Shown here: one piece after another, positions 7,088 to 20,673 of the stretch
How the letters are laid out: each line of letters opens with the position of its first letter
Numbering within the stretch: position 1 is the stretch's first letter
Virus record (IMG/VR): IMGVR_UViG_3300010354_000419
Location: 1-29,361 of that record
Length of the DNA: 29,361 nucleotides
Origin: a virus
Reading direction: 5' to 3' (one strand)
The notes under the pieces: model-generated
The model's input: the letters and a program-made list of their open reading frames with translations, nothing else
Databases searched by the model: none
Told to the model about the DNA's origin: nothing
Made by a program: the position numbers and the translations under genes

Positions 7088-7750
7088 CTACTCTGGCCTG
7101 AACCAGGGGAAGTACTTCCTCGTGTTAAGCCCATTCTCACCAAGTTGGAAGGTGCGGGAGTCGTGGTCAAGTTCATACAGGTCGTACATGCCGGCCAGAA
7201 GAACGCCGTACTCATTCAAGAAGGTCTCTGCACGCTGAGTGTCATCTGACAAGAACTGCAGCACCTTGACAGCGGCGCGATAGGCGAGCATCACATGGAA
7301 CTGCTCATCGAACGAGGGGACATCCGTGTTCGTGGCAAGGTTCACATTGGTGCGAGTGTAGCGAATCTTTACCGTCAAGTCGGTACGCTGTTCTGGAGTG
7401 AAACGGAACACACCAGAGAAGTTCACATCGTAAGAAACCTTAGGGTCGTCGTTCTCGATGTGGTCAAGTTCAGGCACCTGAGACATTTCCTCAACCTGTC
7501 CGTTGTCATTAATCAGGTACGCAGACAGGACACGACGGGTGCCGTTAGTCAAGTTAATCGTGTGAATGCCGGCAACGGGGGCAGGCACCAGCCCAGAGTG
7601 TGTCTGTTCCAGCCAGTCCCAGTCCCGCTCGCGGGCAACCTCATTATACGCCTCGTTAACCCAGGTGTTGATGAGGGTGTCTGAAACCACATCGCTGGAA
7701 TACACGCCGGTTAGGTCCCGTACATGTTGCCGAAGTGCAGAAAGGTTCAT
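7088..7750 (-). CDS. Head-tail adaptor protein (SU10 adaptor / gp11-like)
   Basis: A 220-aa protein. The N-terminal helix MNLSALRQHVRDLTGVYS and the following WVNEAYNEVARERDWDW segment are typical of podovirus adaptor proteins that dock on the portal, known from phage SU10 and T7 gp11. A middle beta region (about residues 65-135) and C-terminal helices (about 150-195, with RAAVKVLQFLSDD) follow. Size and position between capsid and nozzle-like gene fit. A leftward promoter-like element (7766-7792) and a capsid terminator lie upstream, so the tail block is probably transcribed on its own. Confidence in a connector role is good; the exact family is inferred. Confidence 0.75.
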   Translation of the reverse strand: MNLSALRQHVRDLTGVYSSDVVSDTLINTWVNEAYNEVARERDWDWLEQTHSGLVPAPVAGIHTINLTNGTRRVLSAYLINDNGQVEEMSQVPELDHIENDDPKVSYDVNFSGVFRFTPEQRTDLTVKIRYTRTNVNLATNTDVPSFDEQFHVMLAYRAAVKVLQFLSDDTQRAETFLNEYGVLLAGMYDLYELDHDSRTFQLGENGLNTRKYFPWFRPE

Positions 7751-7765
7751 ATATTCTCCGTGTAG

Positions 7766-7792
7766 TCCTCACTTAGAGCCGTGAGTGGGGAA
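7766..7792 (-). promoter_or_regulatory. Leftward late promoter-like element, copy 2
   Basis: The minus strand reads TTCCCCACT-CAC-GGCTCTAAGTGAGGAC. It is preceded by the capsid terminator and followed by the adaptor gene about 15 nt later, with a separate GGAG site. It carries the fully conserved TCCCCACT-N3-GGCT core. Confidence 0.6.
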
Positions 7793-7866: not shown

Positions 7867-8859
7867 TTAGTAGGTGCGGATGAGGACGCCGTTCGCGCGA
7901 CGCTCGGTGGTCCCGAAAGTGAGGGACGAAGCGAGCGGTACGACGGTGTCGAGGGTGCCTTCGAGAGGCTGTGCTGGGAACGCCTTCATGAACTCACCTG
8001 AGCAGTATGCGAAGCGCAGGCTGTCGGTGTTCAAGAAGTAGGCGCGGTCGTCAGCGCAATCTGGGTCGAGGCGGACTTCCAAGTCCCCGAACTTCACCGA
8101 GGTGAAGCGGGTCTGGGCCTGGCCACCCTGCAGCAACTGGTACTGCCCCTTCTCGACGAGGTAAGCCTCGAACTCTTCGTAGACATCGAAGCCCACGATT
8201 GCGACGTTTGGACGCTTGCGTGAGTTCTTGTAGATGTCGTTGGTCACCGTGCGGAACGCAGCCACCACGTCAGCGGCGGAGTCTGCGATTTCGAAGCGGC
8301 TTGAAGCCCAGTAGGACTTACCAGCAGAGTTCGGGTTGATGCCACCAACTGGAGTCCAGTCGGCGTTGGAACCATCGAAGTAGGAGTCCGAAGAAGCGTT
8401 GCCGAAGACCATGTCCAACGGCATGAGGTTGCCGGTTTCGAAGTCTGCGGTGTTCTTGTGGAGTTCTGCCACGATGAAGTCACCATGGTCTGCGGAAGCA
8501 GCCTTGACGTATTCCTCGACCAGGTTCACGATTTGCTCGGGACCAGAGTTCTGGAGAATGTCGCGGTGCTTGACGCGGAACGGGGTGATGATGGTGTCGG
8601 CCCATTCGTACACGGCGGAACCGAGGATGTCGGACGACACAGAAGTGCTGTGCGTGCCCGAAGCGTCGGTGTAGCCGGTAGCGGACAGGTTGGCCGCGCG
8701 TAGCGGAACAACCAGGCCACGGCCTGTGTTGGACTTAGCCTGTCCCTTGAAAAGGTCCAGAACTGGATGTGCTTTGAGCACGTTGTCCACCAACTGCTTC
8801 TCGTACTTTTGAAGCGTGCTGGTGAAAAGTTGGGTGAAGTTGTTGTCACCGAGTGCCAT
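7867..8859 (-). CDS. Major capsid protein
   Basis: A 330-aa protein with a near-perfect ribosome binding site (AGGAGGT) 7 nt before the ATG, the strongest in the window and as expected for the most abundant virion protein. It follows the scaffold gene. The N-terminal region (DNVLKAHPVLDLFKG) and the following strand GRGLVVPLRAA fit HK97-fold coat proteins of P22-like or related short-tailed phages. The segment about residues 215-250 (RPNVAIVGFDVYEEFEAYL) is typical of the capsid A-domain region. A hairpin terminator lies directly downstream. Assignment rests on motif look, length and gene order. Confidence 0.85.
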   Translation of the reverse strand: MALGDNNFTQLFTSTLQKYEKQLVDNVLKAHPVLDLFKGQAKSNTGRGLVVPLRAANLSATGYTDASGTHSTSVSSDILGSAVYEWADTIITPFRVKHRDILQNSGPEQIVNLVEEYVKAASADHGDFIVAELHKNTADFETGNLMPLDMVFGNASSDSYFDGSNADWTPVGGINPNSAGKSYWASSRFEIADSAADVVAAFRTVTNDIYKNSRKRPNVAIVGFDVYEEFEAYLVEKGQYQLLQGGQAQTRFTSVKFGDLEVRLDPDCADDRAYFLNTDSLRFAYCSGEFMKAFPAQPLEGTLDTVVPLASSLTFGTTERRANGVLIRTY

Positions 8860-10021: not shown

Positions 10022-10048
10022 CTCCCTACATATAGCCCTTAGTGGGGA
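10022..10048 (-). promoter_or_regulatory. Leftward late promoter-like element, copy 3
   Basis: The minus strand reads TTCCCCACT-AAG-GGCTATATGTAGGGAG. It precedes the scaffold-capsid pair with an 85-nt leader. The end CTATA..GGGAG is reminiscent of T7-type phage promoters. Confidence 0.65.
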
Positions 10049-10062
10049 AAAAAATTCCCCAC
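10042..10062 (-). terminator. GTGGGGAA / TTCCCCAC hairpin between gene block and promoter
   Basis: A perfect 8-bp inverted repeat with a five-base A loop (T on the minus strand) starts 1 nt after the stop of the gene at 10064-10681. One arm is the TTCCCCAC half of the promoter-like element. The same structure recurs at 16022-16044. It may be a terminator or part of a regulatory site; there is no U-tract after the stem. Confidence 0.4.
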
Positions 10063-15114: not shown

Positions 15115-15337
15115 TTTGGATTTCCTCTGCTTTATGCATCGTCGGCCAATAATCAAGATGCCACACAACCGCAACCTTATCGCTCAACTTATGGCAGCGC
15201 CCACCACACCAACATACGATAGGGGCATCACCATCAAAATCCTCATGCTCCAACCTGACAGCACCGTACCAGTACTGCATGTGCTTTTGCTGACCTTCGC
15301 CAGGGTTCTCGTTGAAAGCATGCAAGACAGTAATCAT
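15107..15337 (-). CDS. Small unknown protein between terminase subunits (76 aa)
   Basis: Start chosen at ATG 15337, which overlaps the stop of the small terminase gene (TGATG) and has GAGG 7 nt upstream inside that gene. It overlaps the start of the large terminase by 8 bp, so it sits in a coupled packaging operon. The protein (MITVLHAFNENPGE...) contains CWCGGRCH (residues 42-49) and several Trp/Tyr/His, so metal binding is possible. I do not recognise it. Confidence 0.6.
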   Translation of the reverse strand: MITVLHAFNENPGEGQQKHMQYWYGAVRLEHEDFDGDAPIVCWCGGRCHKLSDKVAVVWHLDYWPTMHKAEEIQND

Positions 15338-15819
15338 CACGGGGCCTCGCATTGCCACCCCATAGCACGCAACTTCTCAGCCACTACATCAGGCCCCACC
15401 GCCACCAGTGCCTGGCCAATCAGGTCCTCCAGGTCCATGCCGGCTAAGTCAAGGGAACGACTCGCGGCCTCCTCCTCTACGAACGGCTTGCCGTAAGTTT
15501 TGAAGTACAAGTCCAGATACTTTGGATTGCCCGATTTAGCGCCCTCTACGAGCGCAGCCTTCACAATGCGGTAGTCGCCCTCATCACCTTCTGGAAGGGC
15601 CGTAGGAGGCGTTGTAGGGGCCTCTGCGGGGCCGTTAGCCTCCAACTCAGCCTTGCGCTCAATAAACTCTGGTAGAGCCTTCCAGCGGCGCAATGTGCGC
15701 GTCGTGAGACCATTCTTCGTCGCCCACGCAGTCTCGGTGTCAATGCCGCCTCGTTCAGAGACAGGCTTCAACGACCAAAGAATGAATGCGTCCCATTGTT
15801 CGTTGACTGGTTTAAACAT
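15337..15819 (-). CDS. Terminase small subunit (likely)
   Basis: A 160-aa protein with ATG 15819 and GAGGTG 5 nt upstream. Residues about 27-50 (TETAWATKNGLTTRTLRRWKAL) read as a helix-turn-helix, followed by a Pro/Ala linker and a C-terminal helical region (about 85-160) with YLDLYFKTYGKP. This HTH plus oligomerisation layout directly upstream of the large terminase is typical of small terminases, which recognise phage DNA and start packaging. It is the first gene after the leftward promoter-like element at 16005-16030. Confidence 0.75.
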   Translation of the reverse strand: MFKPVNEQWDAFILWSLKPVSERGGIDTETAWATKNGLTTRTLRRWKALPEFIERKAELEANGPAEAPTTPPTALPEGDEGDYRIVKAALVEGAKSGNPKYLDLYFKTYGKPFVEEEAASRSLDLAGMDLEDLIGQALVAVGPDVVAEKLRAMGWQCEAP

Positions 15820-15947
15820 ACTGCACCTCGTGGTTAGGGTATACAGCAAACGGCATGGGCCGAGAGCATATGACCACAGTGCTCACCGTTGGGGGTGACA
15901 CACCGCACCCAACAGACAGACTCCGGTAACCAGTAGCCGGACTCCGT

Positions 15948-15970
15948 ATCGGCCCCTTTAGGGGGCCGAT
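15948..15970. other. GC-rich hairpin in the small-terminase leader
   Basis: ATCGGCCCC and GGGGCCGAT form a perfect 9-bp stem with a 5-base loop. It lies in the leader between the leftward promoter-like element and the small terminase gene, next to the 20-bp palindrome. Confidence 0.6.
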
Positions 15971-15990
15971 TCCGGTTACCGGTAACCGGA
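15971..15990. repeat. Perfect 20-bp palindrome TCCGGTTACCGGTAACCGGA
   Basis: The 20 bases are identical to their reverse complement. Related TCCGGTTACCGGA and ACCGGTTACCGGA sequences recur at 20551-20608, the other long non-coding region, and a partial copy is at 15922-15930. A protein-binding site is likely. Confidence 0.65.
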
Positions 15991-16004
15991 CCCCGTTCCC
16001 TGGG

Positions 16005-16030
16005 CTTTATATATAGCCGCGAGTGGGGAA
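16005..16030 (-). promoter_or_regulatory. Leftward late promoter-like element, copy 4 (packaging operon)
   Basis: The minus strand reads TTCCCCACT-CGC-GGCTATATATAAAG. It is the only such element before the terminase-portal block and leaves a leader of about 185 nt that holds the GC hairpin and the 20-bp palindrome. Confidence 0.65.
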
Positions 16031-16044
16031 TTTTTTTCCCCACT
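16022..16044. repeat. AGTGGGGAA / TTCCCCACT inverted repeat
   Basis: A perfect 9-bp inverted repeat with a TTTTT loop overlaps the leftward promoter-like element. The same repeat with the same 5-base loop length is at 10042-10062. Confidence 0.6.
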
Positions 16045-16059
16045 GTGACAAGAGTCACA
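16044..16059. promoter_or_regulatory. CRP-like operator TGTGACAAGAGTCACA
   Basis: Matches TGTGA-N6-TCACA exactly. It has no TTGACA at the usual 10-nt spacing on either side, but lies about 14 nt upstream of the leftward promoter-like element at 16030. Confidence 0.5.
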
Positions 16060-16250
16060 CCCTGAGGGTATACAGCAGGTTCCCAGGGGGCCAGAACCGT
16101 AGTTTCAGGGTCGCACTTGGGACACTTGGGTGTAGCGGAAATCACACCACCAGTTTCCGCTGTACACCCCCTATAAGTCCGCCGTATGTCCGTAGTTCGC
16201 GGTTTGCCGTGTCCGCCTCCAAAATCGAACAAAAAATACCGCTCGGCCAG

Positions 16251-16274
16251 TATATATATATGAGCGCGCGCGCA
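16251..16274. other. Alternating TA then GC dinucleotide tract
   Basis: Ten bases of (TA)n are followed after TGA by ten of (GC)n. Such tracts melt easily or adopt left-handed DNA, consistent with an unwinding element beside the iterons. Confidence 0.5.
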
Positions 16275-16302
16275 TGGGGGGAGCCAGGGGGCCCTGCTGC
16301 CG

Positions 16303-16339
16303 GTTGCCGTGTTGCCTGTTGCCCTGTTGTCTGGTGCCT
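16303..16339 (+). repeat. Degenerate GTTGCCY short tandem repeats
   Basis: Five consecutive 7-8 bp units (GTTGCCGT, GTTGCCT, GTTGCCCT, GTTGTCT, GGTGCCT) precede the G-run. Confidence 0.6.
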
Positions 16340-16344
16340 GTGTC

Positions 16345-16384
16345 GGGGGCGGGGGACAGGGGCGGGGGGCGGGGGTGCTTGGGG
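16345..16384 (+). other. G-quadruplex-type sequence
   Basis: Six runs of four to six G separated by 1-6 bases lie on the plus strand: G5-C-G5-ACA-G4-C-G6-C-G5-TGCTT(N)-G4. This meets the usual quadruplex pattern of four G-runs with short loops. Confidence 0.7.
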
Positions 16385-16386
16385 TC

Positions 16387-16400
16387 CTGTCTTACGACAG
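16387..16400 (+). promoter_or_regulatory. Full-length copy of the dispersed TTACGAC site
   Basis: CTGTCTTACGACAG has 5-bp inverted arms around TTAC. It is the first of the dispersed CTTACGACA sites and touches the iteron array. Confidence 0.6.
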
Positions 16401-16402
16401 CA

Positions 16403-16472
16403 TGCATAAGTATGCACGCACTTGCATAACTATGCATATGCATAACTATGCACAGGTATGCATGATTATGCA
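16403..16472. repeat. Four palindromic iterons TGCATA-N2-TATGCA
   Basis: Copies at 16403-16416, 16423-16436, 16439-16452 and 16459-16472 (the last TGCATGATTATGCA). Start-to-start spacing is 20, 16 and 20 bp. An array of near-identical 14-bp palindromes is typical of a replication-initiator or repressor binding region. Confidence 0.75.
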
Positions 16473-16481
16473 AGAAACAGG

Positions 16482-16535
16482 TGTGACACATGTCACAGGT
16501 CACCTGCTTGCATCGGGGCAACGGGTCCGGACTGT
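16482..16535 (+). promoter_or_regulatory. Rightward promoter cassette 1
   Basis: Operator TGTGACACATGTCACA (16482-16497), 10 nt, -35 TTGCAT (16508-16513), 16 nt, -10 GACTGT (16530-16535). It faces the leftward promoter of the 16612-16666 cassette. A hairpin AGAGTGC/GCACTCT (16549-16574) lies between them. Confidence 0.6.
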
Positions 16536-16611: not shown

Positions 16612-16666
16612 ACAGTCCGGACCAACAGACCCCCTGTCAAGTAGGTTAGGTGTGAAATATGTCACA
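16612..16666 (-). promoter_or_regulatory. Leftward promoter sharing an operator with cassette 2
   Basis: On the minus strand: operator TGTGACATATTTCACA (16666-16651), 10 nt, -35 TTGACA (16640-16635), 17 nt, -10 GACTGT (16617-16612). Spacing is identical to the rightward cassettes. It points toward cassette 1 and the structural genes. Confidence 0.6.
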
Positions 16667-16715
16667 CAAAAATCTTGGGGACCTACTTGACAAATGCACC
16701 GTAAGTCCGGACAGT
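16651..16715 (+). promoter_or_regulatory. Rightward promoter cassette 2 (bidirectional operator)
   Basis: Operator 16651-16666, then 20 nt instead of 10, -35 TTGACA (16687-16692), 17 nt, -10 GACAGT (16710-16715). The extra distance is one helical turn. The same operator serves the leftward promoter. Confidence 0.6.
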
Positions 16716-16772: not shown

Positions 16773-16811
16773 AAGGACCTACTTGACAAACGGTAGGTAG
16801 GTCCGGACAGT
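16773..16811 (+). promoter_or_regulatory. Rightward promoter cassette 3, without operator
   Basis: ACCTAC then -35 TTGACA (16783-16788), 17 nt, -10 GACAGT (16806-16811). The upstream 16 bases are not palindromic. It is closest to the SprT-like gene, with a leader of about 60 nt. Confidence 0.65.
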
Positions 16812-16843: not shown

Positions 16844-16876
16844 AACAAGTCCAACACACACAGTGAGGTAACACAC

Positions 16877-17512
16877 ATGGACACACAGACAGCAACGGAT
16901 GCCACATTGGCACCCACAATCGACGCCTTGCACCAAGCATGGCATGAGGCCGAAAAGGTGGCCGCCGAAAACGGCATCACCTTGCCGCCCGTCATCATCA
17001 CGGTGCAACGGTCCAAGAAATCATATGGCCACATCACCACGGGTAACACATGGCAAGCCGACGGCCAAGGCCGCTTAGAGGTCATGGTATCGGGTGAGAA
17101 CCTTGCACGCGGTGCGCGCGATGTATTCGGCACCGTATTGCATGAGGCGGCGCACGGCGCCAACATCGCACGCGGCATCATGGACTGTGACCAAAACCAA
17201 CGCCATAACAAAAAGTACAAGGCCGCCGCCGAACTGTTCGGTCTTGCCGTGGAACAGATGGGCCGCTACGGGTACGCCAAGACAACGGTGACGGACGAAA
17301 CGGCGGAACGCCATAAGGCCATCATCGCCACGCTTGACGCGGCCATCAAGGCCGCCGCCATCACGCAACCCGCAACCAAGAAACCCGCACGCGACAAGAA
17401 CAACCCAAGCGCCGTATGCGATTGCGGCAACAAGGTGCGCGCATCGCGTGAGGTCCTTGCACAAGGGATTACTTGCAACACATGCGGCACACAGTATGAG
17501 GTGCGCTCATGA
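16877..17512 (+). CDS. SprT-like zinc metalloprotease-domain protein
   Basis: A 211-aa protein, the first gene of the rightward module, with GAGG about 10 nt before ATG. The sequence VLHEAAHGAN holds the zinc-protease signature HExxH (His89, Glu90, His93), and RHNKKY (His110) supplies the third ligand position as in SprT/Spartan domains. The C-terminus has two Cys pairs, CDC (181, 183) and CNTC (200, 203), forming a zinc ribbon, also usual in this family. SprT proteins cut proteins bound to DNA; phage copies are common in actinobacteriophages but their role is not settled. The leader CCAACACACACA and the coding start ATGGACACACAGACA are duplicated at 17956. Confidence 0.85.
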   Translation: MDTQTATDATLAPTIDALHQAWHEAEKVAAENGITLPPVIITVQRSKKSYGHITTGNTWQADGQGRLEVMVSGENLARGARDVFGTVLHEAAHGANIARGIMDCDQNQRHNKKYKAAAELFGLAVEQMGRYGYAKTTVTDETAERHKAIIATLDAAIKAAAITQPATKKPARDKNNPSAVCDCGNKVRASREVLAQGITCNTCGTQYEVRS

Positions 17513-17785: not shown

Positions 17786-17839
17786 TGTGACGGGTACCAC
17801 ACCTGACCTACTTGACAAACGGTTCCCTGTCCGGACAAT
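17786..17839 (+). promoter_or_regulatory. Rightward promoter cassette 4
   Basis: Operator TGTGACGGGTACCACA (17786-17801, weaker right arm), 10 nt, -35 TTGACA (17812-17817), 16 nt, -10 GACAAT (17834-17839). The leader to the gene at 17956 is about 110 nt with a TGGCC-AAG-GGCCA hairpin (17854-17866). Confidence 0.65.
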
Positions 17840-17955
17840 ACAGGGGGTGCCGATGGCCAAGGGCCACGGTGGTTCAAGACCACACGGCACACGAACGGGG
17901 GCCACCGTCGTCCAACAGGTGGCAAGTCCAACACACACACATACGGAGGTATGAA

Positions 17956-18369
17956 ATGGACACACAGACAGATACGGAGGCACAGACAGTGTCACCAACC
18001 ACAACCCGCGCGGCATTCCACCGCGCTGGCAAGCGACTGGCAGAGCAGGGCATCCTGTTCCACATGTCGCAACCAACATGTTGCAGGTCATGCGCAGAGT
18101 TCCTGACTTACGACAACAATACCGAGGCACAACAGACGCCATCCGTTTTCGGGTTTCGGATTGACGGCAAGATGAACGACCGCCGCATGTTCTCATCGTA
18201 CTGGCACAGAGACTGGCCCGAATACCTTGGATGGGAGAACGAGAGCATGCCCGAGGGCGAGTTCCTGGTGGCCGTGGCCCGAGCGCTCATGGCCGAGGGA
18301 TTTACGGTGACCATACCCGAGAACAGCCACAAGTCCATTACCATCCGATACAACAAGGAGGTAGAGTGA
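17956..18369 (+). CDS. Unknown protein with CCxxC motif (137 aa), possibly DUF6891-like
   Basis: Start chosen at ATG 17956, 6 nt after GGAGG; a longer frame from 17812 would begin inside the promoter. Residues 15-50 read as a helix (FHRAGKRLAEQGILFHM) leading to TCCRSCAEF (Cys42, 43, 46). Later sequence alternates strands and a helix (EGEFLVAVARALMAEGFTVTIPEN). This layout recalls small bacterial proteins in which an N-terminal helix leads to a Cys-rich turn, such as DUF6891, but the match is by eye and weak. It contains one exact CTTACGACA site (18107-18115). Its N-terminus MDTQTDT and leader copy those of the SprT-like gene. Confidence 0.6.
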   Translation: MDTQTDTEAQTVSPTTTRAAFHRAGKRLAEQGILFHMSQPTCCRSCAEFLTYDNNTEAQQTPSVFGFRIDGKMNDRRMFSSYWHRDWPEYLGWENESMPEGEFLVAVARALMAEGFTVTIPENSHKSITIRYNKEVE

Positions 18370-20619: not shown

Positions 20620-20673
20620 AGTGACAAATGTCACACGCAACCTACTTGCATTCTGTCTACCCATCCGGACAGT
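20620..20673 (+). promoter_or_regulatory. Rightward promoter cassette 6
   Basis: Operator AGTGACAAATGTCACA (20620-20635), 10 nt, -35 TTGCAT (20646-20651), 16 nt, -10 GACAGT (20668-20673). A short leader leads to the two-HTH gene at 20712. The leader end GACCACAGGAGGTACAT recurs before the gene at 23129. Confidence 0.65.

Follow-up and report, generated by a model that had tools for sequence, protein, structure and literature searches.

What binds the four closely spaced palindromes that lie between the late and the early genes of this virus, and what might they do there? The window analysed here is the entire virus record, 29,361 bases in length, which is classed as linear and is therefore possibly a fragment. 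Its leftward late genes encode the portal protein and the large and small terminase subunits (terL and terS), while its rightward early genes encode a SprT-like peptidase, an HTH protein, a PD-(D/E)XK exonuclease, a helicase-type AAA ATPase and a sigma-region-4 protein. About 1 kb of noncoding DNA, in which the palindromes fall, separates terS from the SprT-like gene (Table 1), and the gene layout confirms that this region divides the two directions of transcription, as had been supposed. The terS candidate has no PHROGs match of its own.

Megablast found no DNA relative of the window among named phages, all of which remain below 60% identity in TerL, the best matches listed being at about 24-27%. 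Relatives were found in IMG/VR, the closest by TerL being L001 (88% identity), followed by L002, L003 and L012 (84-87%) and by others with lower values; a search by pattern with the SprT gene as the query retrieved no viral relatives. The window contains no tRNA and no structured RNA matched by Rfam.

Table 1. Features of the early/late control region and of related genes, in coordinates of the window
Feature	Position	Strand	Remarks
Probable terminase small subunit (terS), first late gene	15337..15819	-	Place before terL; homology to the same-placed gene in relatives
CRP/GlxR-type palindrome TGTGACAAGAGTCACA	16044..16059	.	terS side
(TA)5 and (GC)5	16251..16273	.	(TA)5 at 16251-16260, (GC)5 at 16264-16273
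GTTGCC repeats	16303..16339	.	GTTGC units start at 16303, 16311 and 16318; partly conserved in relatives
Six G-runs of 4-6, quadruplex-capable	16345..16384	+	
ARG-box pair 1, TGCATAAGTATGCA-N6-TGCATAACTATGCA	16403..16436	.	20 bp start to start; predicted operator, one ArgR hexamer
ARG-box pair 2, TGCATAACTATGCA-N6-TGCATGATTATGCA	16439..16472	.	20 bp start to start
CRP/GlxR-type palindrome TGTGACACATGTCACA	16482..16497	.	Adjoins the array
Promoter-like module TTGCAT-N16-GACTGT	16508..16535	+	Overlaps GTCCGGAC palindrome; pattern only
Promoter-like module TTGACA-N17-GACTGT	16612..16640	-	Counterpart in L001 at 8481
CRP/GlxR-type palindrome TGTGAAATATGTCACA	16651..16666	.	Between divergent promoter-like modules; kept in L001 at 8455-8470
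Promoter-like module TTGACA-N17-GACAGT	16687..16715	+	Overlaps GTCCGGAC; conserved in L001
Promoter-like module TTGACA-N17-GACAGT	16783..16811	+	Overlaps GTCCGGAC
SprT-like metallopeptidase, first early gene	16877..17512	+	PHROG 6361; Pfam SprT-like match under the curated cut-off
Sigma-region-4 protein of the phage	26229-26678		

Arrangement of the palindromes and their surroundings

The pattern TGCAT-N4-ATGCA occurs four times in the 29,361 bases of the window, always in the array (starts at 16403, 16423, 16439 and 16459), compared to 0.03 occurrences expected from dinucleotide shuffling. The initial annotation described four TGCATA-N2-TATGCA palindromes spaced by 20, 16 and 20 bp; the positions and the spacing are correct, but the fourth box, TGCATGATTATGCA, differs from that formula by one base. 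The boxes were also regarded there as iterons about two helical turns apart, a view that we revise: the natural unit is the pair of boxes 20 bp apart, because in L001 (array at 8553-8633) the layout is 20/27/20, with a wider gap between the pairs but an unchanged spacing within each.

The neighbouring elements reported earlier, namely the alternating TA and GC dinucleotides, the GTTGCC repeats and the six G-runs, are all present at the positions originally given. The number of G-runs in 40 bp is exceptional, as the maximum among 200 sequences simulated with a first-order Markov model was four. A leftward transcript across this stretch would be C-rich and G-poor. The element TATATATA, adjoining G+C-rich DNA, is found also in L001, L002 and L003, and L012 has TATTTTA.

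Relationship to the arginine operators of Actinomycetota

The four palindromes are very probably ARG boxes, i.e. operators of the arginine repressor ArgR arranged as two pairs, as judged from the agreement of their sequence, pair spacing and genomic precedent with those of known operators. In particular, ARG boxes share the geometry of a 14-bp core and of pairing at 20 bp. The precedent comes from about 85,000 genomes, which were scanned in an unbiased manner with the pattern TGCATN4ATGCA-N5..7-TGCATN4ATGCA, after which the genes flanking the matches were examined; the bases fixed by the search pattern match by construction, but the gene context does not. Eleven of the 17 matches in Actinomycetota flank argC (TIGR01850; L024, L033, L037, L044, L046, L054, L070, L071, L073, L077 and L083), the pair being located about 20 bp upstream of the argC start in ten of them, while in L044 the array overlaps the called start. 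Another pair (L042) adjoins pheT at the edge of its contig, in the place occupied by argC in its relatives; one (L089) is found 17 bp upstream of carA, and the remaining four (L052, L056, L064 and L075) do not accompany any known arginine gene. A spacer of exactly 6 is shared by 10 of the 11 argC matches and the match next to pheT. The argC operator of L070, a member of Nanopelagicaceae, reads TGCATAAGTATGCA-N6-TGCATAACTATGCA and thus consists of the same two boxes as the first pair of the window.

Fragments of the Streptomyces coelicolor genome shifted by ArgR in vitro carry ARG boxes (PMC5839063), and 37 boxes from such gel-shift-positive fragments were used to build an ArgR matrix, with no phage data included. 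With the 14-bp core of this matrix the four boxes rank first to fourth in the window, and over 20 bp the top six positions of the window all fall within the array. The box at 16459 is the best match (24.2 bits); the phage boxes score 17-24, compared to 18.6-24.4 for host argC boxes. In the more distant phages L095, L131 and L136 the paired boxes are likewise the two best positions.

Like the actinobacterial arg operators (those of argC, argG and argH, and the ARG boxes of S. coelicolor, PMC5839063), the phage array has the 14-bp core TGCAT-N4-ATGCA, is intergenic, and comprises boxes paired at 20 bp with similar matrix scores. On the other hand, it is situated in a phage control region without a nearby arg gene, it comprises two or three pairs in the phages rather than the single pair of the arg operons, and no overlap of its boxes with the recognised promoter-like modules is seen, whereas such overlap is present in many arg operons.

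The initial annotation interpreted the locus as an initiator-binding and unwinding region. A replication origin in which a phage-encoded initiator binds the palindromes as iterons is in our opinion very unlikely, even though the region is divergent and has TA-rich and G-rich stretches, genes for a helicase-type AAA ATPase and a two-HTH protein follow downstream, and the cumulative GC-skew reaches its minimum here, in the 16,000 bin of the window and in the 8,500 bin of L001. As an explanation of the palindromes, initiator iterons give way to ArgR operators, which they match in sequence, in spacing and in the argC precedent, as well as by the independent Streptomyces matrix. Moreover, L012 keeps the HTH protein at 65% identity while the boxes are absent. 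No known Rep or initiator family is encoded next to the array, the nearest early gene being the SprT-like one. The skew minimum does not show an origin, because the direction of transcription switches at the same place; together with the presence of the boxes in relatives (L012 being without them), it leaves an origin unrefuted. An origin at this locus, which is unproved, is a question separate from that of the palindromes.

Recurrence of the box pairs and the probable binding protein

The spacing of 20 bp within the pair is retained in L001, L002, L091, L095, L131 and L136. The layout of L002 is still 20/16/20, although its sequence has shifted towards TGYAT, and further boxes are found alongside. 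In L091 (TerL 67%, TerS 43% identity) a pair separates terS from an SprT-like gene, and in L095 (TerL 53%) as well as in L131 and L136 (TerL 46-47%), with a GC content of 34-37%, a pair precedes terS by about 430 bp. The boxes are absent from L012 despite its TerL identity of 85%, and the array is therefore dispensable in at least one close relative.

A scan of viral contigs for one strict and one relaxed box revealed 43 places with the spacing of 20 bp and three with the spacing of 25 bp, the latter being a control of a single spacing value in a different helical phase; about seven of the 43 are 10-bp tandem repeats that should be set aside. In L094, L096 and L113, which do not belong to the phage group, pairs likewise precede terminase genes, at a distance of about 450-650 bp. 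The array used as a DNA query produced weak, short matches alone among named phages, and the best of them, in Gordonia phage GMA3, was rejected as a cluster of overlapping palindromes with no clear pair. A viral contig (L105, positions 841-911) displays four ARG-like boxes spaced by 20, 17 and 20, which is nearly the layout of the window; the examined stretch of this contig has no match to the window's key proteins.

Neither an ArgR domain nor a cyclic-nucleotide-binding (cNMP-binding) domain was found in the phage records tested, which may be fragments, and a phage-encoded ArgR or CRP was accordingly discarded as the binding protein. As argR is missing from these records, the repressor is presumably that of the host, and we infer from the operator sequences that host ArgR would bind the array. 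The host is probably an actinobacterium, because the operators match those of that phylum and because the contig of L095 encodes WhiB (7551-7769 of the record), which among 14 control genomes was found in Corynebacterium only. WhiB-domain genes were observed also in L113 and L137, i.e. in phage contigs with ARG pairs, and the presence of WhiB genes in such contigs provides supporting evidence for actinobacterial hosts.

A repressor-binding array had been mentioned as an alternative in the initial annotation, and the kind of element was thereby correctly anticipated, but the phage two-HTH protein, suggested there for footprinting, was rejected as the binder, as this protein and the sites do not co-occur in L012. 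It is extremely unlikely that the boxes are operators of some phage-encoded repressor that shares the recognition sequence of ArgR by chance: the phage does encode an uncharacterised HTH protein, but, apart from the case of L012 and the lack of an ArgR domain in the phage records tested, the full geometry of the array, with its 14-bp core and 20-bp pairs, copies that of ArgR operators.

The early/late control region and the possible role of the array

Perfect TGTGA-N6-TCACA palindromes, which like the repeated TTGACA-N17-GACAGT modules near the array do not figure in the initial annotation, are found five times in the window (16044, 16482, 16651, 19001 and 20461; 0.08 expected) and three times in L001. 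They agree with the consensus for CRP quoted in PMC4117774, a paper that reports a similar motif for Mycobacterium tuberculosis CRP. Two of them adjoin the array; that at 16651 is flanked by a leftward and a rightward copy of TTGACA-N17-GAC[AT]GT, an arrangement that is the same in L001. We regard TTGACA-N17-GACAGT as promoter-like because it is repeated and conserved; a general scan for ordinary sigma-70 promoters finds none, and the modules are weak sigma-70 matches. A further copy of the module, in the relaxed form TTG[AC][CA][AT]-N16..17-GAC[AT]GT and with TCCGGAC over its second part, is located at 20646 on the plus strand. The repeated module with TCCGGAC is probably a phage promoter combined with an operator, and it possibly serves the phage's own sigma-region-4 protein. 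A Xer/dif interpretation of the CTACTTGACA repeats was also considered, but their arms are not inverted repeats and the TTGAC core alone is kept in all the L001 copies, which is why we prefer to read them as -35 elements. Among the early genes, leaders and gene starts are themselves repeated (16846-16899 and 17923-17978 are 78% identical along about 54 bases, and the 19 bases at 16776-16794 recur exactly at 17805-17823), which suggests duplicated expression cassettes.

If the modules are promoters, the array is upstream of the rightward ones and downstream of the leftward one (at about +130 to +200 in the window and +40 to +120 in L001), whose transcript would cross the array towards terS. Since the array adjoins this divergent promoter-like array with its CRP-type sites, its role is most likely transcriptional, and we consider it fairly likely that a double ArgR operator is placed in the early/late control region, where host ArgR, and perhaps CRP, would act on transcription. 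According to this scenario, an arginine-loaded hexamer of the host ArgR would dock on each pair of the predicted double operator and would modulate expression from, or past, the divergent control region depending on the arginine status of the host, be it by repression, by activation or by insulating the early from the late genes, while host CRP would provide a second nutrient input. Such an arrangement suggests a control region that reads both the carbon and the arginine state of the host. A simple roadblock is doubtful, because Escherichia coli ArgR bound downstream of the start site does not block transcription from carP1 (PMC6640053).

It is rather unlikely that the array is an ArgR sponge, in which a large number of replicating phage genomes with high-affinity operators would titrate ArgR and derepress the host synthesis of arginine (as well as of carbamoyl phosphate and pyrimidines), thereby providing for virion proteins and for nucleotides. 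The presence in each genome of two to three hexamer sites whose scores resemble those of host argC operators, the absence of overlap with the recognised promoter-like modules, and the recurrence of pairs in unrelated phages would agree with this idea, but a pure decoy would not need the conserved position between terS and the early genes.

The position with respect to the terminase genes raises another possibility, by analogy to the cer site of ColE1, a mobile element that likewise recruits host ArgR, which works there with PepA (PMC2409434): ArgR might bend the DNA as an architectural factor in packaging (at a cos or pac site next to terS), in initiation of replication or in Xer-type dimer resolution. 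Within the phage group as well as in other lineages, terS or terL is preceded by pairs at a distance of about 430-730 bp, and the leader on the terS side is strongly conserved and rich in hairpins. Nonetheless, an architectural site appears improbable: the ArgR accessory site of cer adjoins a Xer core and needs PepA, whereas inspection of the phage sequence revealed no such core, the spacing between the pairs and the distance to terS vary, and a comparable proposal of ArgR action at loxP of phage P1 was tested experimentally and rejected. The terS leader itself (15830-16060, minus strand) contains many inverted repeats and shows strong conservation among relatives, with GTGGGGA...TCCCCACT followed by GCGGCTTATATAA kept in most of 11 relatives, and it could be a cos or pac site, a late promoter or an RNA leader. 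The conserved GTGGGGAATTTTTTTCCCCAC hairpin recurs in inverted orientation, identical over 22 bases, between two late genes at 10041-10062.

Returning to the transcriptional role of a double ArgR operator, it is tempting to extend it beyond this phage group. As a tentative proposal, towards which we are more sceptical than favourable, several unrelated lineages of actinobacterial phages may have convergently placed pairs of host ArgR operators ahead of the terminase genes; the arginine level of the host (together with cAMP and CRP) would then gate the early-to-late switch, or the phage DNA would titrate ArgR and thereby unlock arginine synthesis in the host.

In the open-access literature, to which our search was largely confined, no phage with a confirmed ArgR operator came to light, and the only proposal encountered was the rejected one for loxP of P1. 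The nearest published parallel is provided by the NtcA sites of T4-like cyanophages (PMC3037559), a reported case of sites for a host nutrient regulator in phage genomes and, likewise, in phage control regions, which were inferred to let the phage use the metabolic state of the host. The regulator and its ligand (NtcA and 2-oxoglutarate) are different, and the NtcA sites are spread over many genes, whereas the ARG array is clustered at the early/late divide.

If ArgR acts at this locus, uncultured actinobacteria might be infected in a manner dependent on the arginine state of the cell. The ARG pairs with their 20-bp spacing also offer a sequence handle for assigning phages to actinobacteria and for finding the control regions of these phages.
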